Of a stretch of DNA of 33,075 nucleotides, positions 3,959-24,813 are shown one piece after another (the stretch's first letter is position 1; every line of letters starts with the position of its first letter). Both the position numbers and the translations under genes were made by a program. Under the pieces are notes generated by a model. It made no database searches and was not told the DNA's origin. It was given only the letters and a program-made list of their open reading frames with translations. The DNA is from Verrucomicrobiia bacterium (GTDB lineage Bacteria; Verrucomicrobiota; Verrucomicrobiia; Verrucomicrobiales; DEV007), in assembly GCA_020439925.1 (NCBI GenBank), contig JAGRPC010000291.1, positions 1,412 through 34,486 on the forward strand, written 5' to 3'.

Positions 3959-6178
3959 ATGTCCCTATCCTCCCTGCCCATGTTCAGACGAGGCCTCCCA
4001 TTCAAGCTGGCATTTCAAATCCTTCTCGCGAGTGGAGCCAGTCCGCTTCTCTCCGAATCGCCGATAATTGACAACCGGACAACAGTCTATTCGCAGGGAG
4101 ATGCGCACTCCTCGACGGACGAAGCGACGGCGCAGGCTTTCACGACGGGGAACGGAGAGGCCGTCTTATCCGCTGTCGAGGTGGTTCTTGAACTCCGCAG
4201 CGACTCCACGATCGCGGTGAAACTTTGGTCGGGCTCGGAAAACTCTCCCGCGACGGTGGTCGAGGACTTGGGGCAACAGTCAGCAACAGGCAGCGGCTCC
4301 AGCACCCTGCGTTTTGTCTCGTCAAGCCGACCCATCCTCGCCCCTTCCACCCGTTATTGGATCTCGGTGGCAAATGTCTCGGGTGACTTCGACTGGACGC
4401 TCACTGCCGATGCGACGAATCCAGCCGGACCCGGTAGCTTCGTGAATCTCACTCGCGGTTCGAGCAACGGGGGAACCACCTGGCCCGATCCGGGGGCGTC
4501 GGGGGACTTCCGGCGGATGGCGGTGTTTTCGGTGGATCTGGGTGCGCTTGACACGAATTTCAATCCACCAGCTGGATTGAGCAATTCTGTCTACACTCTC
4601 TTGCAACAGGCGAATGGACGAGTGCTCGCGGGAGGTTCCTTCTTAGACGTCGGCGGGAGTGCAACTCGGGACTATATTTTTCGACTCAACGCGGACGGAA
4701 GCCTGGACGAAACGTTCAATCCACCGACTGAGATAAGGGGCGACATATTGTCTCTGGTCCAGCAAACCGACGGACGGGTGCTGGCAGGTGGCGGGTTCCT
4801 ATTCATTGGAACCAACGGAAGTCGCGACCGGCTCATCCGGCTCAATGCCGACGGCGGGCTTGACACAAATTTCAACCCACCTGGCGGATTGAACAACGGT
4901 GTCAACTCGATCACTCCCCTTCCCGATGGACGAATTCTAGTCGGAGGAGCATTCACTAATGTGGCGGGAGACGACATCCGTGATTATCTCATTCGCCTAA
5001 ACTCCGACGGCAGTCTCGACGAGAGTTTTGATACAGAAACCGTGTTGAACGATTGGGTTCGTACGGTAGTGACGGGCACAGATGGTAAAATACTTGTGGG
5101 CGGACGCTTCAGCGATGCAGGCGGAGATATCTACCGAGATCGACTTGTTCGCCTGAATCTCGACGGCAGTCTCGACACATCGTTCAATCCGCCCGCGAGC
5201 TTGAACAACGATGTCATTACTCTCGCGATGCAGTCTGACGGGAGAATCCTGGTTGGAGGAACCTTTACAGATGTAGGCGGAGAGACCGATCGCGATCGGC
5301 TCATTCGACTCAACACTGACGGCAGTCTCGACACAACGTTCATTCCTTTTTCTAATTTGAACTCATCCATATATTCCCTCATTCCTCTAAGTGACGGACG
5401 AGTTCTGGTGGGCGGTTCGTTTGTCAACGCAAATGGAGAGGCCATCCGAGATCGGATCATCTGCATCAACGCCGACGGAAGCCTCGACGAAAGTTTCAAT
5501 CCACCTTCGAACTTAAACAATACGGTGTGGGCGGTAGTTCCACAAAGTGACGGGCAATTGCTTGTCGGGGGGCTTTTCACCGACGTAGGAGGGGAGGTGG
5601 ATCGCGACCGTCTCATTCGTCTCGACTATGAACGAGGCACTAGCAAGCTTAGTGTCCCCGATCTGACTCAAGTGCGCTGGCTACGTGGCGGGGCTTCCCC
5701 GGAGGCTTACCGGGTCGAGTTCGAGGTCTCAACGGACGGAGGAATAAGCTTTTCCTTTCTGGGAGAGGGCAAGCGCATCAACGGAGGTTGGGATCTGCAT
5801 GGACTGCGCCTCCCCGCAACCGCTACCATAAGGGCGCGAGCCCATGTTCCATCGGGAATCTCTAACGGTTCGGTCGCACACTATGAAGAGTCCCTTTCGA
5901 TCAACATGACCGGAACTCCTTCGATACGACTGAAAGGAAAATCCCGGCTCACAACAACACGTTCTAGCATAACCCTCCGAGGTACTGCCAACGATCCGGA
6001 CAACGACTTGCTCTCCGTCCGCTATCGGTCGGGGAAAAGAACGAGGTTGGCGAAAGGCACCTCTGCCTGGAGCGCGAAGGTGAGCCTGAACCCAGGGTTG
6101 AACCGGATCCTCGTGCAGGCCTACGACTCCCGAGGAGTTGTTTCGCGACCGGTGACGGTGATCATCCGCCGCGGATGA
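3959..6178 (+). CDS. Exported delta-60 repeat protein with choice-of-anchor and Ig-like regions
   Basis: A 739-residue secreted protein of no known activity. The N-terminus (MSLSSLPMFRRGLPFKLAFQ, then a hydrophobic stretch to about residue 32) looks like a signal peptide. Residues 40-195 resemble a choice-of-anchor R type beta domain (VYSQGDAHSS, TRYWISVANVSGDFDW). Residues 197-560 are seven delta-60 repeats of exactly 52 residues. Each begins LDxxFxP, has a DGRxLVGGxF core and ends RLNxDGS. Such repeats are predicted to form a beta-propeller-like structure. Residues 560-739 contain further beta-rich sequence and a bacterial Ig-like segment (TLRGTANDPDNDLLSVRYR). GAGAGA at 3950-3955 is a weak ribosome site before the ATG. 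The gene looks less GC-rich than its neighbours, especially in the repeats. It ends 19 bases from the convergent AttH-like gene. Probably cell-surface or secreted. Confidence 0.9.
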   Translation: MSLSSLPMFRRGLPFKLAFQILLASGASPLLSESPIIDNRTTVYSQGDAHSSTDEATAQAFTTGNGEAVLSAVEVVLELRSDSTIAVKLWSGSENSPATVVEDLGQQSATGSGSSTLRFVSSSRPILAPSTRYWISVANVSGDFDWTLTADATNPAGPGSFVNLTRGSSNGGTTWPDPGASGDFRRMAVFSVDLGALDTNFNPPAGLSNSVYTLLQQANGRVLAGGSFLDVGGSATRDYIFRLNADGSLDETFNPPTEIRGDILSLVQQTDGRVLAGGGFLFIGTNGSRDRLIRLNADGGLDTNFNPPGGLNNGVNSITPLPDGRILVGGAFTNVAGDDIRDYLIRLNSDGSLDESFDTETVLNDWVRTVVTGTDGKILVGGRFSDAGGDIYRDRLVRLNLDGSLDTSFNPPASLNNDVITLAMQSDGRILVGGTFTDVGGETDRDRLIRLNTDGSLDTTFIPFSNLNSSIYSLIPLSDGRVLVGGSFVNANGEAIRDRIICINADGSLDESFNPPSNLNNTVWAVVPQSDGQLLVGGLFTDVGGEVDRDRLIRLDYERGTSKLSVPDLTQVRWLRGGASPEAYRVEFEVSTDGGISFSFLGEGKRINGGWDLHGLRLPATATIRARAHVPSGISNGSVAHYEESLSINMTGTPSIRLKGKSRLTTTRSSITLRGTANDPDNDLLSVRYRSGKRTRLAKGTSAWSAKVSLNPGLNRILVQAYDSRGVVSRPVTVIIRRG
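4547..5638 (+). repeat. Seven tandem 156-bp coding repeats (delta-60 units)
   Basis: Units begin at 4547, 4703, 4859, 5015, 5171, 5327 and 5483, a constant period of 156 bases (52 codons) with no indel. Protein similarity between units is high (LDxxFNPP, GRxLVGGxFxxxGG, RDRLIRLNxDGSLD). Nucleotide similarity is moderate, with many third-position differences, so the array is not a recent slippage product. The seventh unit ends divergently (RLDYERG). This is coding sequence, not a CRISPR or satellite array. Confidence 0.92.
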
Positions 6179-11952: not shown

Positions 11953-13368
11953 TTACTGCAGGGGAGGAGCAGGAAGCGGCGCCTCGAGTTCGCCGATAAC
12001 AAATTTCTTCCAGAGTTTACTCACGCCTTCGTTCGGGATGAAGGTCTCGTCCTCTCCCATCGGTGCCGCAGGATCGGTGATTTTGAGAACTTCACCCGTC
12101 TCCACGTTGCCGTGGTAGCCTTTGCTTCGGTCCACCTCAACAGGACGGGGTTTTTCCGGCGCAGCGGGAGTTGGTTCCTCCTTAGGCTTTTCCCCCTCCG
12201 CTGGCGTGGATGGTGCCGATCCTCCCTTGTCCTTGCCGTCCTTCCCTTCTCCCTCGGCGGGCGGGGGCGGAGGAGGAGGGGCCTTTTCCGGCAACCGGTC
12301 CGCTAGCACCTCGATGAGGTAACGCTTCCCAAAAAAGTCGGCCACCGGGCTGGGGTCACCCGGTCCACGAAACTCCCGCCCGTTGGTCCAGTTCGGAGCG
12401 AGCGGCGCGGCTTTCGCAAGAACGGATTCGGCGTAGTTCTCGGACTTCCAGAGTTCATGATTGTTGCTGTATTCGCCCCAGACAAACAACATCGGCACCT
12501 TGGCCGACTCGGGCGTGGGCTCGGCATCGTAGAAAGCCCCTTTGCTTACCACCGCGGCAAGGATGCGTTCCGGCTTGTAATGCACAAAGTTGTAGACAAA
12601 GGCGGCCCCGGTCCGCTCTGCACCATAGAGCGCGATCGGCAAATCAATGAGATCCGCAACCTTGGTTTGAACGGCAAAGCTGCTGAGCGCCGACTCCAAG
12701 GCCTTGCCGCTTCCCTTTGCCGCAAAGACAAAATCGTCGATCACGGTGGGATCGAGGTTGCGCTCCCCATCCGCAATATCATACGTGAGGAGGGCAAGGT
12801 CATACTTCGTCTGGAATTCCGCCCAGGGTCCGTTCCCGCGCTGTTGATTGCCAAGTTGCTGAAATGAACGGCCGAAGTCGTCCAGCGAAATCACGAGCAC
12901 CCCGCGAGGTTTGCCCAGAGGAAGCTGCAGCATGAAGGTGAGTTTGCCGACACTGGTATCGAACCATCCCGGATAGCGCGACGCCTTCGCCTTGTCGCCG
13001 CCCTTGTCCGCATCGGGGGCCGCCGGAGGCGCCATGTCGTCGACGGGACGGTCCAGGTTCAAAGGGATCGTTTCGCCCTCCTTCGAACGGAGATAAGCCG
13101 CATAAATGAGTTTGTGCTCTCGCTCGAGCGCCCCGAGATCGAGTTTCTCCCAGGTGATTCCAATCACCGGACCATCGGCCACCATCTGGGCCGTGAGCCC
13201 CTTCGGCGTGGCATCCTTGATGAGATGAAAAGCCACCGCCCGACCGTTCGCGCCGGTGAGACTGATTTCGGCGCAGAGGCGCCCCAGACTCACTCCTGAC
13301 AAAACGAGAACAAGAGCGAATAACGTCGCCTTCCTCCGAGCCTGCGCATTCGAGTCGAACTCTTTCAT
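11953..13368 (-). CDS. Exported alpha/beta-hydrolase-like protein with a degenerate nucleophile elbow
   Basis: A 471-residue protein with an N-terminal signal (residues 1-33, hydrophobic core LFALVLVLSGVSLG) and AGGCGG about 9 bases before the ATG. The central part looks like an alpha/beta-hydrolase: strand-like GVLVISLDDFGRSFQQLG, then PIALYGAERTGAAFVYNF, where a GxSxG elbow would be expected, and VPMLFVWGEYSNNHELW before the C-terminal part. At the elbow, Glu251 replaces Ser, so the usual catalysis is unlikely. Residues about 360-420 are a Pro/Glu/Lys-rich linker with a run of seven prolines. The C-terminal tail (YHGNVETGEVLKITDPAAP) is unrecognised. The SDR gene lies upstream on the same strand with a 72-base gap. 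I do not recognise a named family; the fold assignment is inference. Confidence 0.75.
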   Translation of the reverse strand: MKEFDSNAQARRKATLFALVLVLSGVSLGRLCAEISLTGANGRAVAFHLIKDATPKGLTAQMVADGPVIGITWEKLDLGALEREHKLIYAAYLRSKEGETIPLNLDRPVDDMAPPAAPDADKGGDKAKASRYPGWFDTSVGKLTFMLQLPLGKPRGVLVISLDDFGRSFQQLGNQQRGNGPWAEFQTKYDLALLTYDIADGERNLDPTVIDDFVFAAKGSGKALESALSSFAVQTKVADLIDLPIALYGAERTGAAFVYNFVHYKPERILAAVVSKGAFYDAEPTPESAKVPMLFVWGEYSNNHELWKSENYAESVLAKAAPLAPNWTNGREFRGPGDPSPVADFFGKRYLIEVLADRLPEKAPPPPPPPAEGEGKDGKDKGGSAPSTPAEGEKPKEEPTPAAPEKPRPVEVDRSKGYHGNVETGEVLKITDPAAPMGEDETFIPNEGVSKLWKKFVIGELEAPLPAPPLQ

Positions 13369-14407: not shown

Positions 14408-17400
14408 ATGAGAGTTCTCAAAATTTTTACCCTTCTGCTGTCAATAATGCCTTGGGGAGAAGTGACTGCACAGGATGCGGCAGGTCTTGACCGTGCCGTG
14501 GCGATCGCGCCCTTTCTTAACGGAGCCCTACCACCCCGCCCCCCCCGGCCTTCCACTGGAAGCTGGCGCCTGGTTAACGCCTTTCCCAGTCTGACTTTTA
14601 TCGATCCGGTGCAGATGCTGCCGGTTCCCTTTTCCAACCGACTCATGGTTGTGGAAAAGTCTGGACGTCTTGTCGTTTTTGAAAACAGCGAGTTGGTGAC
14701 AACCAAGACCGTTCTCCTCGACATCCGCAGCCAGGTCGAATCCTCCCACGACAGCGGCATGATGGGACTCGCCTTTCATCCCGAATTCGGGGTTCCGGAC
14801 TCTCCCAACCGAAACTACCTCTACGTCTACTACCGCTTCACCGTGCAAAAGTCAGACACGAACCGCGCCTACTGCCGACTTTCCCGCTTCACCTGGGATG
14901 CCTCGTCCAACTCGATTGCCCCCTCTTCCGAATCCGTTCTCATCAACCAATATGACCGACACAACTGGCACAACGGCGGCGGCCTCTTTTTCGGACTAGA
15001 CGGTTTCCTCTACCTCTCCACGGGCGACGAAGGAGGTGCAAACGATCAATACAACACGGGCCAGCGGATGGATACCGGACTTCTTGCGGGAGTTCTTCGC
15101 ATCGATGTCGATCGCGATCCCACGCGCAGCCATCCCATCCGGCGACAGCCGAGGAATCCGTCCACGCCTCCCTCCGACTGGCCGAACAGCTACTCCGCGG
15201 GTTATTACATCCCGAACGACAATCCGTGGCAAAGTCCAACAGGCGCGCTCCTCGAGGAGTTCTACGCGATCGGCACAAGGAGCCCCCACCGCATGGTGCA
15301 GGACCGTGTCACCGGCGATATCTGGCTGGGAGATATCGGTCAGGGTACCCAGGAAGAGATCAGCAAAGTAGTCCGGGGCGGCAACCTGCAGTGGCCCTAC
15401 CGCGAGGGTAACGTCGCCGGCCCCAAGACAAAACCCTCTCCCCTGATCGGTACCGATGTTACCCCGGTTTATGCCTATGGCCGCACCACCGGCGGATGCG
15501 TCATCGGTGGGTATGTCTACCGCGGAGCCCTGCACCCCGAGTTGTCGGGCAAATATATCTTCGGAGACCACAACTCAAACGCGATCTGGTCCCTCGACAC
15601 CTCCGGAGGGTCGCCGGTGGTCACCCAGATCCTCACACTCTCTCCGCACGGTCCCGGCCCCAAAAATGGAATGGGGTCTTTCGGAATCGATTCCTCCGGA
15701 GAAATCTATGTTCTCAGTCTCGCCGGTACCGATCTGGACGGCGGTCGCATCTACCGCATCGAAAAATCGACCGAAGGAGTTCCCGAACCACCCCACCTCC
15801 TTTCCCAGACCACGGCTTTTCTCGATCTCGCATCCCTCACTCCTGCCGCCGGGCTGGTCCCTTATCGTGTGAACCAGCCACTCTGGTCCGATGATGCCGG
15901 AAAGGAACGCTGGATCGCCATCCCGAACGACGGCACTCCCGACTCTGCCGCCGAACGAATCGGATGGTCCGAGGAGGGAAACTGGTCCTTTCCCGTCGGA
16001 ACCGTGCTCATCAAACATTTCGGATACCCCGACCGTCGTCTCGAGACGCGATTCCTCGTCTACGGGGACGATCTCTCCTGGTATGGATTCACCTATCGAT
16101 GGCTCGAAGACGGAAGCGATGCCGAACTACTGTCCGGAGAACCGGTCGATGCCACGATCACCGTCGGCAGCGAATCCCGGCAGTGGCATTTTCCGGGGCG
16201 CAACGAGTGTGGCACATGCCACTCCTCTGCCGCAGGCCGGGTCCTCGGGGTGAAGGCACGACAGCTCAACGGCGACTTCTTCTATGCCTCCACCGGCCGC
16301 ACCGCAAACCAGATTGTCACGCTTAATCGACTCGGCTTCTTCTCGCCCGCTGTGGACGAAAGCAGACTGCCCACTCTCCTCACGAGCAAAGCCCAGGACG
16401 ATCCGCTCGCGACGCTCGAACGACGGGCGCGCTCCTATCTCGACGTCAACTGCTCACACTGTCACCAGCCGGCTGCCCCCACCCAGGCAGCCTTCGATGC
16501 CCGCCTCGAAACTCCACCCTTTTTCCAGAATCTTATCAACGTTAGTCCAAACAATGCCCTCGGTATCAGCGGGGCTCGTCTCGTTAGTCCCGGTCGCCCC
16601 GATTTGTCCATCGTCCACCGTCGACTCGGCTCGCTCGCTCCCGGCGTTGCGATGCCTCCCCTTGCCAAAAACCTGGTCGACTTGGACGGCCTCGCCTTGA
16701 TCACTGACTGGATCAACAGCCTCGATCCTGCCGTTGTGCCGACCGGTCCGACCTCCGGCACAACGCCTCGCGACCATAGCCCGCCCGTCCTGACACTTAT
16801 ACGAAGCGGCGACACCGCCCCCGTCAACGGCCCGTTTTTCGTGGAGGTGGAAGCAAGCGAATCCGTCCGTGGCCTGACGGCCGGAGACATCGCGATCGAC
16901 AATGGCACCATCACCTCGATAAGCGGTAGTGGAACAAGCTGGACCCTTGGAATTGTTCCGTCGTCACCCGGCACCGGAAGCCTCTCGATCCCCGCAGATC
17001 GCGTTGTCGACCAGAATGGCAATGCCAATCCCGCAACTCCGCCTCTTTCCTTTTTCTACGAAGCTCCCAGCGGCCCCGAAGACCTTCTCACGGGCGGAGA
17101 CTTCGAAAACGGCCTGGAGGGCTGGGACAACGGTGGCGGCGTCACTCCGACGACCAGCGCCCACCTAGGGCTACGGGCCGCGGCGCTTTCTCCCTCTGCC
17201 TACATCGTCCGAACCATCCCGGTCAACGAGCTTCAAAACTACCTCTACACCGGATGGATCGCCTCGTCAGCCCCGGGAGTTCGTGCCGAAGCCGGGCTCA
17301 CCTTCTGGGACGGCAACGGCGTATGGATCCACGATCGCATTCTTTCCTTCGAGCCCGTAAGTGCCTGGTCCCCGTTCGAACTGGCCTTCACGGCACCAGT

Positions 17401-19348
17401 GGCCGCCCGCAGCGTATCCGTCTGGATCCTCGCCAATGCGAGCGGAGGCCTCTCAGTCGATGATCTCCGGATCACCCAGGAAGGAGATGGCGAACCTCGC
17501 CCGATCTTTGGCCCCGCCAGCACCAATCTTCTCTCCAACGGGGGCTTCGAGTCCGGCTTCGCCACCTGGGATCTAGGAGGCACTACTCTTCTCTCGGCCG
17601 CGTCGCGCACGGGGACCGCAGCGGCCGCCCTTTCCGAAGGATCCTTTGTCGTCCAGACCCGGACAGTGAGGCCCGGTGAGATGCTCGCACTCGCCGGAGT
17701 CTACTTCACCGGAGCTCCCGGAGGCAGGGTCGAGGCCGGCTTCTCTTTCTGGAATGCTTCCGGCGATTGGATCACCGATCGCACCCTTGTGCTCCCGGAT
17801 TCATCCTCGTATCGTGAATTCCTCGTCGATACGAGTGCCCCCGAGGGCAGTGCAACGGTCACTCTCTGGGTCTGGCGAAGCAACGGCGACGCGGTCACCG
17901 TGGACGACCTCGTCCTTTTCCGCCCCGACGAATCCACCGGAACTCCCTCCAATCTCTATTCAAACGGGAGCTTCGAGGGCGGCTCGCTCGCTCCCTGGGA
18001 TACGGGCGGGAGCGACGTGATCATGGTCTCCAACGCACATTCGGGGAATAGCGCCGCCCAGATCGGAAGCAATTCCTTCGTCGTGCAGAGTTTTCCTGCG
18101 CTTCCCGGAGAACGCTATCTTCTCGGCGGATACCATTTCAACAACGGGGCGGCAACCGCTCCACGCGAGGCAGGTTTCACTTTCTGGAGTGCAAGCGGTC
18201 AATGGCTCGGTGACACGATCGCCAGCCTGCCGGATTCCTCAGCCTACGCCCCCTTTGCCATCGAGGGAATCGTTCCCGACCAAGCGGCCTCATTTTCCGC
18301 CTGGGTCTGGAGTGGCGAAGGCGGCAACGTCGCTGTCGACGATCTCACCCTGGCCCGCCTCGGTGAAGGAACCGCGAATGCAGATCTCACGGCAACGCCG
18401 GAGGACGCCATCGAGGAACGCCAGGTCATGGACGAGACAACCGAATTGACCATGATTGCTCTGAAGAGTTCCCGAACCATCGAGTTTTCGGGGGAACTCC
18501 CGGTGGAAAAGGACGATGATCTTTCGCTTTTCCTTGGCACTCCCTATCCGGTCTTCACGAATGGATGGCATCCCCTCTACGTCGACGGCCCAAGGGAAGT
18601 CGCGACTTACGGAATCGATCCCGGAGAATCCAAATCCCTCGTTACCTCTTTGAGAGGCTCCGGAATTGTATCCGCCCAATGGCATCTCGACTCCTTGCCC
18701 GGCTACGCAACTCTGAGACTTCTGATCGACGGGATCGAACGCGAACGCTGGACCTCACCAAGCGACACGACTTCTTATCGCACCGTTTCGGCGAAGTTGA
18801 TCGGGGCCGGGATTCACAGCGTCGAGTTCCGACTTGAAGGTCATGGAGTTTCCAGTGATCCCTACCTCGCCGCGACCCTGCGCAACCTTGTCTTTCATCA
18901 GGGCATTCAACGTCTCCAACCCGACCTGGCCGTATCCGATACATCCGGCGGATACTTCATCGGCGAAAACCGCTATCTGACAGGCGGGGCGACCCAACAA
19001 CTGCGCCTCAAAGCACGAGGAAGAAAACCGACACTCTTCACATTAGTGTGGAGCAACGACGCGGACAAACTTGAAGACGGAGCCCTCCTCTCCGGTTCCC
19101 GGGGAGATCGCTTCCACAAAGCCTCTTACTTTCAAGTCGACGCCTACCACAGGAGCAACATCACAGCAGCCATCACTTCCGGAAACTGGGAAACCCGAAT
19201 GGCTGCCCCGGGAGGCACCGAGACTTTCGGAGCGGAGATCCGTCGCACGAGGGCGGGCCGAAGAGGTTTCAAAGGTATCGTGAGAGCAAAGTCACTACTC
19301 GACGAGGCAAAACGCGACGAAGTGAAGCTCCAAACGAGAGGGCGTTGA
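14408..19348 (+). CDS. Giant exported PQQ sugar dehydrogenase-like / diheme cytochrome c / Ig-like / CBM-like protein
   Basis: A 1646-residue secreted protein (ATG 14408; a TTG at 14381 would add nine residues). The signal peptide is MRVLKIFTLLLSIMPWGEVTAQ. Residues about 35-455 match the soluble PQQ-dependent glucose/sorbosone dehydrogenase beta-propeller (HNGGGLFFGLDGFLYLSTGD, GTRSPHRMVQD, GDIGQGTQEEI). Residues about 465-775 match SO_2930-type diheme proteins (YRVNQPLWSDDAGKERWIAI), with heme motifs CGTCH (C601, C604, H605) and CSHCH (C682, C685, H686). A Big-type Ig domain follows at about 794-887, then three CBM4/9-like units at 892-1320. The C-terminal region (1320-1646) is beta-rich and unrecognised. 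The expected activity is oxidation of a sugar or alcohol with electrons passed to the hemes; the substrate is unknown. No sorting signal is obvious. It is preceded by an AT-rich leader without a Shine-Dalgarno sequence. Confidence 0.92.
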   Translation: MRVLKIFTLLLSIMPWGEVTAQDAAGLDRAVAIAPFLNGALPPRPPRPSTGSWRLVNAFPSLTFIDPVQMLPVPFSNRLMVVEKSGRLVVFENSELVTTKTVLLDIRSQVESSHDSGMMGLAFHPEFGVPDSPNRNYLYVYYRFTVQKSDTNRAYCRLSRFTWDASSNSIAPSSESVLINQYDRHNWHNGGGLFFGLDGFLYLSTGDEGGANDQYNTGQRMDTGLLAGVLRIDVDRDPTRSHPIRRQPRNPSTPPSDWPNSYSAGYYIPNDNPWQSPTGALLEEFYAIGTRSPHRMVQDRVTGDIWLGDIGQGTQEEISKVVRGGNLQWPYREGNVAGPKTKPSPLIGTDVTPVYAYGRTTGGCVIGGYVYRGALHPELSGKYIFGDHNSNAIWSLDTSGGSPVVTQILTLSPHGPGPKNGMGSFGIDSSGEIYVLSLAGTDLDGGRIYRIEKSTEGVPEPPHLLSQTTAFLDLASLTPAAGLVPYRVNQPLWSDDAGKERWIAIPNDGTPDSAAERIGWSEEGNWSFPVGTVLIKHFGYPDRRLETRFLVYGDDLSWYGFTYRWLEDGSDAELLSGEPVDATITVGSESRQWHFPGRNECGTCHSSAAGRVLGVKARQLNGDFFYASTGRTANQIVTLNRLGFFSPAVDESRLPTLLTSKAQDDPLATLERRARSYLDVNCSHCHQPAAPTQAAFDARLETPPFFQNLINVSPNNALGISGARLVSPGRPDLSIVHRRLGSLAPGVAMPPLAKNLVDLDGLALITDWINSLDPAVVPTGPTSGTTPRDHSPPVLTLIRSGDTAPVNGPFFVEVEASESVRGLTAGDIAIDNGTITSISGSGTSWTLGIVPSSPGTGSLSIPADRVVDQNGNANPATPPLSFFYEAPSGPEDLLTGGDFENGLEGWDNGGGVTPTTSAHLGLRAAALSPSAYIVRTIPVNELQNYLYTGWIASSAPGVRAEAGLTFWDGNGVWIHDRILSFEPVSAWSPFELAFTAPVAARSVSVWILANASGGLSVDDLRITQEGDGEPRPIFGPASTNLLSNGGFESGFATWDLGGTTLLSAASRTGTAAAALSEGSFVVQTRTVRPGEMLALAGVYFTGAPGGRVEAGFSFWNASGDWITDRTLVLPDSSSYREFLVDTSAPEGSATVTLWVWRSNGDAVTVDDLVLFRPDESTGTPSNLYSNGSFEGGSLAPWDTGGSDVIMVSNAHSGNSAAQIGSNSFVVQSFPALPGERYLLGGYHFNNGAATAPREAGFTFWSASGQWLGDTIASLPDSSAYAPFAIEGIVPDQAASFSAWVWSGEGGNVAVDDLTLARLGEGTANADLTATPEDAIEERQVMDETTELTMIALKSSRTIEFSGELPVEKDDDLSLFLGTPYPVFTNGWHPLYVDGPREVATYGIDPGESKSLVTSLRGSGIVSAQWHLDSLPGYATLRLLIDGIERERWTSPSDTTSYRTVSAKLIGAGIHSVEFRLEGHGVSSDPYLAATLRNLVFHQGIQRLQPDLAVSDTSGGYFIGENRYLTGGATQQLRLKARGRKPTLFTLVWSNDADKLEDGALLSGSRGDRFHKASYFQVDAYHRSNITAAITSGNWETRMAAPGGTETFGAEIRRTRAGRRGFKGIVRAKSLLDEAKRDEVKLQTRGR
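17081..18365 (+). repeat. Three tandem CBM4/9-like coding repeats within the giant protein
   Basis: Units begin at 17081, 17525 and 17951 (148 and 142 codons apart). Each starts NLxSNGxFExG followed by WDxGG, has an AG(L/F)(T/S)FW block, and ends with VDDL. This jelly-roll pattern is typical of carbohydrate-binding modules and would anchor the enzyme to polysaccharide. Carbohydrate binding is inferred from the family. Confidence 0.75.
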
Positions 19349-23466: not shown

Positions 23467-24813
23467 ATGCCGGACTTTTCCGACATTTTTGAGGTGCTGC
23501 TGCTGCAGAATTACAACACCCGCCTCGTCGTCCTCAGCACAACCCTTCTCGGGATCGCGGCAGGGCTGGTCGGATCCTTTCTCCTCCTGCGCAAGCGTTC
23601 CCTCATGGGCGACGCCCTTTCCCATGCCACCCTTCCCGGAATCGCCATCGCCTTCGCCGTGATGGTTTCCTTCGGGGGCGAAGGAAAATCCCTTCCCGCC
23701 CTTCTTCTCGGCGCCACCATCTCGGGGGTCGCCGGCATCGCCACGATGCTTCTCATCCGCAACACCACGAAGCTTCGCGACGATGTCGCCATGGGTTTCG
23801 TTCTCTCGGTCTTCTTTGGCGTGGGGGTCGCGAGCCTCCGCATGGTGCAGGATATTCCCGGAGCGAGCGCAGCAGGACTCGAGTCTTTCATTTACGGAAA
23901 GACCGCCGCGATGGTCGCGAGTGATTTCCTCCTCATCGCCCTCGTCGCCGGCGCCGCCTCGCTCCTGTCACTACTCTTCCTCAAGGAATTTCTCATCCTC
24001 TGCTTCGACGACGGTTATGCCGCCTCGCAGGGGTGGCCGACCCTTTTCCTCGACATCCTCCTCCTCGGCCTCGTCACGGCAGTGACCGTGATCGGGCTCC
24101 AGGCGGTCGGGCTGATTCTCGTCATCGCTTTCCTCATCACGCCGCCAACGGCGGCCCGATTCTGGACTCAGCGGCTCCTCCCGATGCTGCTGATCTCCGC
24201 GTTCATCGGTGGGGTAAGCGGATGGCTCGGTGCCTCTCTCAGCGCCCTCACCCCTCAACTCCCGGCGGGTGCAGTCATCGTTCTTGTCGCGGCGGTTCTC
24301 TTTCTGGTCAGCTTGTTCTTCGCACCCGAACGCGGGGTGCTCCCTCGTTTTCTCAATCAGGCCGCCTTGAGGCGAAAGGAGGACCGCCAGCACTTCCTGA
24401 GGGCCGCCTACGAAATCGTCGAAGAGCAGGCTTCGGGAGGCAGCGTCGCCAACCGATCCTTCCCCTTCGAGGCCCTCCTCGCGAAGCGGTCGTGGTCCCC
24501 CCACCAGCTCCGCCGGATTCTGCGTGTCGCCCGGCGCGAAGATCATCTCGAGCCGACACCGCCGGGACGTCTCCGTCTCTCCGAACCCGGCTTTGGTGAA
24601 GCCGCGCGCGTCACCCGCAATCATCGCCTCTGGGAGACTTACCTGATTCAATATGCCGACGTCGCCCCGAGCCACGTCGACCGCGACGCCGATATGGTCG
24701 AGCACATCCTCGGCGCGGAACTGGTCCGCGAACTCGAGGCGAAGCTCGTCGGAGCCCTTCCCGACCTGAGCGTGCCGCCCAGTCCCCACCCTTTTCCTTC
24801 GCCTTCCGCATGA
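23467..24813 (+). CDS. Metal ABC transporter permease fused to a C-terminal DtxR-like module
   Basis: A 448-residue protein. Residues 1-290 are a TroC/MntB/ZnuB-type permease of about eight membrane helices, with family motifs RKRSLMGDALSHATLPGIA and FLITPPTAARFW. Residues about 295-448 are hydrophilic and resemble a DtxR repressor. A winged-helix-like part (SWSPHQLRRILRVARRE and LRLSEPGFGEAARV) is followed by a metal-binding domain (RNHRLWETYL, then DMVEH, with His386, Asp409, Glu412 and His413). The latter aligns with His78, Glu101, Glu104 and His105 of the window's own repressor. It may sense cytoplasmic metal and gate the permease, but this is inference. Permease-DtxR fusions occur in other bacteria but are little studied. 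It starts 2 bases after troB and ends in an ATGA overlap with the next permease. Confidence 0.93.
   Translation: MPDFSDIFEVLLLQNYNTRLVVLSTTLLGIAAGLVGSFLLLRKRSLMGDALSHATLPGIAIAFAVMVSFGGEGKSLPALLLGATISGVAGIATMLLIRNTTKLRDDVAMGFVLSVFFGVGVASLRMVQDIPGASAAGLESFIYGKTAAMVASDFLLIALVAGAASLLSLLFLKEFLILCFDDGYAASQGWPTLFLDILLLGLVTAVTVIGLQAVGLILVIAFLITPPTAARFWTQRLLPMLLISAFIGGVSGWLGASLSALTPQLPAGAVIVLVAAVLFLVSLFFAPERGVLPRFLNQAALRRKEDRQHFLRAAYEIVEEQASGGSVANRSFPFEALLAKRSWSPHQLRRILRVARREDHLEPTPPGRLRLSEPGFGEAARVTRNHRLWETYLIQYADVAPSHVDRDADMVEHILGAELVRELEAKLVGALPDLSVPPSPHPFPSPSA

Follow-up and report, generated by a model that had tools for sequence, protein, structure and literature searches.

A conserved Verrucomicrobiota protein that joins a sugar-dehydrogenase-type propeller to a diheme domain and carbohydrate-binding-like units

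What might a bacterium do with a single polypeptide that carries a propeller of sugar-dehydrogenase type, a diheme domain and a tail of units resembling carbohydrate-binding modules (CBMs)? The question is raised by one gene in the 33,075-nucleotide stretch of DNA analysed here (the window), which belongs to a genome assembly of 607 contigs that is 93% complete (G000). The best explanation as a whole, to which we give roughly even chances, is that the protein is exported and attached to the surface or matrix, where it binds polysaccharide and transfers electrons.

The gene lies on the plus strand at 14408-19348 and its translation runs through 1646 amino acids with no internal stop. An alternative TTG start 27 bases upstream of the ATG at 14408 would lengthen the reading frame; the ATG itself is followed by a plausible signal peptide, read by eye. 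The features are as follows.

14408..19348, plus strand: whole gene, 1646 amino acids and stop; full-length orthologue in G048 (locus L065)
14408..14473, plus strand: putative signal peptide, residues 1-22, by eye from the translation
14555..15790, plus strand: six-bladed propeller of GSDH fold, residues about 50-461, which retains the catalytic-type His and Arg but has lost the PQQ-carboxylate clamp
15791..16192, plus strand: beta-rich subdomain at the start of the SO2930/TIGR03806 match, residues about 462-595 (profile and model)
16208..16222, plus strand: heme 1 motif CGTCH, residues 601-605, in 41/41 distinct diheme domains
16451..16465, plus strand: heme 2 motif CSHCH, residues 682-686, in 41/41 distinct diheme domains
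16652..16660, plus strand: MPP motif, in 41/41, with Met749 as probable distal ligand of one heme
16775..17032, plus strand: Big_12 Ig-like domain, residues 790-875 (Pfam profile)
17069..17488, plus strand: CBM-like unit 1, residues about 888-1027 (fold comparison)
17513..17926, plus strand: CBM-like unit 2, residues about 1036-1173 (fold comparison)
17933..18370, plus strand: CBM-like unit 3, residues about 1176-1321 (CBM_4_9 and NTTRR-F1 profiles, fold comparison)
18515..18904, plus strand: additional beta domain, residues about 1370-1499, with modelled strands that look jelly-roll-like
18926..19345, plus strand: C-terminal module (alignment A5), residues 1507-1646, multi-copy in its own genome

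The original prediction had described one secreted polypeptide with a PQQ dehydrogenase-like propeller, a diheme cytochrome with two CxxCH motifs, an Ig domain and three CBM-like units, and all of these parts are found in this one reading frame behind the signal peptide read by eye. Searched segment by segment, three Pfam profiles scored over their cut-offs: GSDH (PF07995; 85.9 bits against 25, in two stretches, the best at residues 67-247), Big_12, which marks the Ig domain (36.9 against 27), and CBM_4_9 (30.4 against 25.9, in one stretch only). Two NCBIfam profiles fell below theirs. TIGR03806, the SO2930 diheme profile, reached 228.7 bits against 313.3, yet it spans profile positions 2-314 of 314 at residues 462-772; none of the 16 TIGR03806 matches in the genome exceeds the cut-off. 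NTTRR-F1 (NF033675) reached 63.5 bits against 70, from residue 1181. The three CBM-like units are present in the structural model and in fold comparison. Three parts lie beyond the prediction: the beta-rich subdomain between propeller and hemes, the beta domain at about 1370-1499 and the C-terminal module.

An orthologue of 69% identity over residues 1-1646 sits in a syntenic block in G048. Judged by this full-length relative, the gene is a conserved protein and more than the product of chance. A second orthologue, in G001, is 55% identical over residues 1-1644, while alignments to the remaining relatives cover part of the tail or the core only. A sample of 58 genomes of the GTDB family gave core matches in 57, many of them to the propeller only, and near-complete core matches are found in G048 (85%), G024 (74%), G012 (72%), G036, G001 and G030 (71%), and G013 and G035 (59%). 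Identity to relatives is well below this in the tail: 56.3% against 85.3% for the core at L065, 42 against 71 at L068, 38 against 65 at L071, and 33 against 59 at L074. In the phylum sample, 17 of 145 genomes have any match at E 1e-20, and a match spanning the propeller and diheme halves occurs in at least 10, our own included, a count that is a lower bound as at most 7 candidates were scored per genome. A contig scan returned 12 loci, 11 of them in Verrucomicrobiota MAGs (the nearest at 85%) and one in a Flammeovirgaceae MAG (44%). Because the fusion recurs in 10 of 145 phylum genomes and at the Flammeovirgaceae locus, the link between propeller and diheme domain looks selected. Within G000, a propeller adjoins the diheme profile at three more places, on contigs C367 and C475 (both cut by the contig end) and C16.

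The surroundings of the gene do not form a sugar-use operon, a candidate context that we rejected: both neighbours are on the opposite strand, and the window neighbours rarely recur. Among eight loci compared, they form a block only in L045 (G048, the closest relative), two are kept in L048, one weak match (29.5%) is seen in L047, and they are absent at L046, L049, L051, L052 and L063. Two long reading frames of the window, 318-2468 and 11953-13368, have no Pfam match at E 0.01, and the latter is kept beside the gene in L045 and L048. The window also encodes a 739-amino-acid protein (3959-6178) in which DUF5122 propeller repeats occur together with a Glucodextran_B domain. At 23467-24813 the C-terminal domain of an iron-dependent repressor is joined to an ABC-3 metal permease; close to this fusion lie a ZnuA-type binding protein and a regulator of the iron-dependent-repressor type.

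The nearest solved relative of the propeller is an animal protein, by a modest margin over PQQ enzymes. We modelled residues 22-791 with AlphaFold2 from 12 sequences (mean pLDDT 69). Confidence is 75-95 in most propeller blocks, 29-45 in the heme part, and below 50 at model residues 187-204, 224-243, 251-268 and 303-329, close to part of the cofactor site. By sequence, the nearest solved chain is human HHIP (E 7.9e-17), followed by 3a9g (1.3e-10) and sGDH (4.8e-8). By fold, VIA-align again places HHIP first (7pgm, a heparin complex; Z 34.0, rmsd 3.0, 337 aligned), with 7cgz (Z 31.9) and 3a9g (31.5) next, among HHIP rows of 31-33; sGDH (27.7-29.6) and AA12 (24.4-25.9) follow, so that AA12 folds rank under HHIP, Asd and sGDH, and unrelated propellers score 20-22. 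Taken together, the bacterial PQQ sugar dehydrogenases score Z 27.7-31.9. Foldseek gives HHIP the better E-value (9.5e-21 vs 1.6e-18 for 3a9g), whereas its target-normalised TM-scores favour 3a9g and 7cgz (0.77-0.78) over HHIP (about 0.6). The lean to HHIP over the PQQ enzymes is real and modest. HHIP is an animal signalling protein, not an enzyme. None of the listed VIA-align matches of this model extends beyond model residue 442 into the beta subdomain or the hemes; by sequence, the diheme part finds no solved structure at E up to 1, and the tail finds none either.

Conservation within the propeller suggests that the reaction site has been retained and the site for the cofactor has changed. 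We collected 63 fused propellers, of which 39 were distinct after exclusion of near-duplicates and truncated fusions (e.g., our own C475 and C16), and aligned them with YliI, 3a9g and 2ism; Arg228, Asn229, Pro248 and Arg406 follow sGDH numbering. The equivalents of the catalytic His144 and of Arg228 are kept in 39/39. The Asn229 position holds Ser in 24, Asn in 13 and His in 2, and Pro is found in none at the Pro248 position. Lys is likewise found in 0/39 at the Lys377 position, a column made uncertain by Arg in 3a9g and a gap in 2ism. Arg occurs once at the Arg406 position and never at that of Arg408, and the Arg-x-Arg pair is found in 0/39. Four other propellers of the genome (L013, L014, L016 and L017) also lack the pair, although in that region the remote L014 and L017 align only weakly. 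The fused family is therefore like sGDH (1c9u), Asd YliI (2g8s) and 3a9g in fold, catalytic-type His and Arg228 equivalent, but lacks their clamp of Lys377 and Arg406/Arg408. A protein-derived quinone (Trp-Cys) was considered as cofactor and dropped: the Trp before the catalytic His and the Cys of a GGC motif occur together in only 18/39, Trp without Cys in 4/39 and Cys without Trp in 3/39, the last also in the stand-alone propeller L013.

Roles for His144, Lys377 and Arg408 in PQQ enzymes are described in PMC6881789, which also reports that AA12 enzymes hold PQQ differently, by other residues. In CcPDH, the AA12 PQQ-site residues are Arg273, His539, His560, Trp563 and Asn564. Loss of the clamp lowers the odds of PQQ in the fused family, and binding by other residues, as in AA12, may still occur. 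The PQQ dehydrogenase-like propeller of the original prediction holds as to its sugar-dehydrogenase fold, by profile and fold match; the PQQ label is not supported, with the clamp at 0/39, HHIP nearest and no PqqC match, and the “PQQ enzyme” label is doubtful. Loss of the PQQ-binding residues, which the prediction had named as evidence against itself, is largely what the alignment gives (Arg406 with Arg408 in 0/39, Lys377 in 0/39).

Cofactor supply was examined across genomes, since a PqqC search of our own genome gave no match in its controls either. Among 145 phylum genomes, PqqC was matched in 5 (4 over cut-off), and in neither G000 nor the other 9 fusion genomes. The overlap expected by chance between PqqC genomes and fusion genomes is only about 0.3, so the absence indicates a lack of own synthesis in these assemblies, not avoidance. 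For PqqE, nothing in G000 exceeded the cut-off; the best hit had 85.6 of 381.35 bits, and sub-cut-off hits of that kind occur in all 14 controls. PQQ can also be scavenged.

These observations bear on two rivals to the best explanation. The stronger, which we consider possible but rather unlikely, is that the propeller is a non-catalytic, HHIP-like scaffold that binds glycan or protein, the whole being a tethered diheme electron carrier only. HHIP is its nearest solved relative by both sequence and fold, the clamp is lost in 39/39, and, according to PMC10916295, the propeller pair of Teredinibacter turnerae TERTU_3803, when tested, neither bound PQQ nor oxidised glucose. However, the strict upkeep of the His144 and Arg228 equivalents argues for chemistry, all the more as the aligned human HHIP fragment has His where the fused propellers keep Arg228, and the HHIP margin in fold is small, with 7cgz and 3a9g ahead in target-normalised TM-score.

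The weaker, which we regard as improbable, is that the protein oxidises sugars or alcohols with PQQ, hands the electrons to a cytochrome of its own and is anchored on polysaccharide, in the manner of fungal AA12-AA8-CBM1 proteins. A GSDH profile over cut-off and the retained catalytic-type His and Arg228 would fit such an enzyme, scavenging could supply its cofactor, and PMC4133262 reports that the AA12 enzyme CcSDH is PQQ-dependent though several prokaryotic PQQ residues are missing. Against this stand the 39/39 loss of the clamp (judged by prokaryotic sGDH/Asd residues), the lack of a PqqC match in the 10 fusion genomes when 5 of 145 have one, and the lack of PqqE over cut-off.

From 51 diheme domains, removal of near-duplicates left 41, and both CxxCH motifs together with one MPP are invariant in all of them, which supports the predicted diheme domain. 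Tyr563 is also found in 41/41, Lys536 in 40/41 and His537 in 35/41. At residues 590-690, His, Met or Lys rises above 40% only at the two CxxCH histidines; with no other such column, heme 1 has no conserved His/Met/Lys ligand nearby, and candidates for this role are Lys536 or His537 in the beta subdomain. From this pattern, we infer one His-Met electron-transfer heme and one heme with an unusual or open site. Related arrangements were seen elsewhere. Two reading frames of about 2300 amino acids (L062 and L064) have an SO2930-like diheme domain near the N terminus and match the 1646-residue protein only from residue 457, without a propeller. In G000, reading frames of 457-1226 amino acids (L005-L012) match only the last third of TIGR03806, the heme part, and some of them resemble PSCyt-type cytochromes by eye.

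The tail was modelled separately (residues 781-1646; 9 sequences, mean pLDDT 78). Unit 1 matches the porphyran-binding CBM 8xmz (Z 18.2, rmsd 1.8, 131 aligned) and the CBM16 2zew (Z 18.1, rmsd 2.4, 136 aligned), unit 2 the CBM16-1 3oea (Z 18.6, rmsd 2.2, 136 aligned), and unit 3 the CBM22-1 4xuo (Z 15.5, rmsd 2.6, 144 aligned); together, their fold matches comprise CBM16, porphyran-binding CBM, CBM61, CBM4-2 and CBM22. The same fold list holds phage tailspikes and Fbs1, which are not CBM proteins, so a CBM-type fold alone is no proof of glycan binding. After the CBM-like units the model has a disordered linker and then the further beta domain, and the listed fold matches barely reach these last two domains (model residues 542-866).

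Extracellular redox proteins of modular build, TERTU_3803 and Cbp2D among them, are the closest kind to this protein. The nearest described design that we found, TERTU_3803, is large and secreted, as is TERTU_2913, and is built from CBMs, a jelly-roll X122 domain, c-type cytochrome domains and a propeller pair that carries the annotation PQQ glucose/sorbosone dehydrogenase (PMC10916295). By their descriptions in the same source, the two T. turnerae proteins are set apart by X183 and X132 cytochromes instead of an SO2930 diheme, by the pf08450-X173 make-up of the TERTU_3803 propeller, and by the lack of a CBM in TERTU_2913. Cbp2D and Cbp2E of Cellvibrio japonicus likewise combine CBM and redox domains (PMC8981238) and were needed for growth on insoluble cellulose (PMC8981238; PMC12542752), but the passages that describe them give a YceI-like X158 domain and name no GSDH propeller. 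Fungal CcPDH (AA12) is a three-domain protein with a six-bladed GSDH-type propeller and an attached cytochrome, but that cytochrome is a b-type AA8 domain and PQQ is bound in the crystal via AA12-specific residues (PMC6881789; PMC4332668). In the same phylum, PSCyt-CBM proteins of freshwater Verrucomicrobia combine cytochrome c domains with CBM and Ig-type domains; they belong to the PSCyt1-3 families, and “sorbosone” is absent from the main text of that paper (PMC5615132). A literature search on GSDH and cytochrome in PVC phyla gave no “sorbosone dehydrogenase” among the matches listed.

These designs, Cbp2D and TERTU_3803 in particular, would count by analogy for the reading given at the outset, a polysaccharide-binding electron-transfer protein at the surface or in the matrix. 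The three CBM-like units would hold the protein on a glycan. In the propeller, the pocket with the catalytic-type His and Arg may bind the end of a sugar or some other reductant. Electrons from there would reach the fused diheme domain, which would hand them to a further acceptor on the cell surface or outside the cell. PQQ would not be held in the sGDH/Asd manner; if the propeller is redox-active, scavenged PQQ or another cofactor would presumably be bound via different residues. The C-terminal module may place the protein. Electron transfer on polysaccharide is plausible. Against this explanation stand the lack of a sugar-use operon, the poor model at the hemes and in parts of the propeller, the occurrence of CBM-type folds in non-CBM proteins, the fact that HHIP, nearest among solved propellers, is no enzyme, and, in PMC10916295, a TERTU_3803 propeller for which neither substrate nor cofactor was found.

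The original prediction saw a redox enzyme tethered to polysaccharide, perhaps feeding other enzymes. Export by eye, the heme motifs and the CBM-type folds fit the tethered redox protein, but the genome offers no AA10 recipient: LPMO_10 (PF03067, the AA10 family profile only) has no match in this 93%-complete assembly, while the same search matched the Lactococcus lactis control. That the protein donates electrons to lytic polysaccharide monooxygenases (LPMOs) is very unlikely, for although the Cbp2D X183 domain reduces bacterial LPMOs (PMC8981238) and CcPDH drives LPMO action (PMC5960967), its own genome lacks an LPMO_10 match and the TERTU_2913 X183 domains failed to reduce LPMOs (PMC10916295), a result that also counts against the preferred explanation as a whole.

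The last 140 amino acids add a separate question, that of location. Module A5 is not convincingly matched by any Pfam or NCBIfam profile: member 1 gives no hit, and scattered single-member hits have E 0.007 or worse. In its own genome it is matched 32 times at E 0.001 and 26 times at 1e-6, on diverse proteins, and in the best 20 of the 32 it ends no more than 12 residues from the C terminus; L089 and L091 have an additional weak A5 match earlier in the protein. Ten A5-bearing proteins were compared with Pfam: three have NHL repeats, one each has An_peroxidase, beta helix, CAP, PA14 with Big_12, or a Chlam_PMP repeat, and two have no match. The peroxidase (L091:1489-3423) is an animal-type haem peroxidase (An_peroxidase, 435 bits). 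Seven of 56 family genomes carry A5 (G048 31, G054 31, our own 26, G027 13, G001 8, G055 2, G013 1), and among 96 phylum genomes only our own does, by a model built from near relatives that may miss remote versions.

Orthologues in G012, G036 and G030 end instead in an unrelated module of about 290 amino acids, A6.

L067:9153-10034 and L069:9165-10046: A6 module on orthologues

Across 15 genomes, A6 has 10 copies in G012, 28 in G036, 18 in G030, 26 in G024, 11 in G026 and 3 in G018, and 0 in the other 9, among them G000, G001, G048, G054 and G027; at E 1e-6, none of the 15 genomes searched with both modules has A5 and A6 together. Orthologues carry the multi-copy module of their own lineage, A5 in G000, G048 and G001 (26, 31 and 8) and A6 in G012, G036 and G030. 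That one conserved core bears either module is the chief pointer to a role in sorting or attachment. We tentatively propose, at somewhat less than even chances, that the C-terminal module may be the label by which an undescribed system of Verrucomicrobiota sorts proteins to the surface or attaches them, with the redox protein as one of its cargoes, and, coupled to this, that the propeller family may be a redox head without the known PQQ clamp in its cofactor site. A simple sorting rule is opposed by A6 often occurring in tandem, hence not strictly terminal, by the G013 relative (L070), which ends in neither module, and by the 49 of 56 family genomes that lack A5. Both modules could be binding domains instead of sorting labels.

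A GSDH profile hit alone is insufficient to infer PQQ metabolism, as the fused family lacks the known clamp and its genomes have no PqqC match. With this protein, Verrucomicrobiota join Cellvibrio and Teredinibacter as bacteria with modular extracellular redox proteins, whose electron-generating reaction is described as still an open question (PMC8981238). The module swap, in turn, offers a starting point for testing how large proteins may be positioned in these bacteria.
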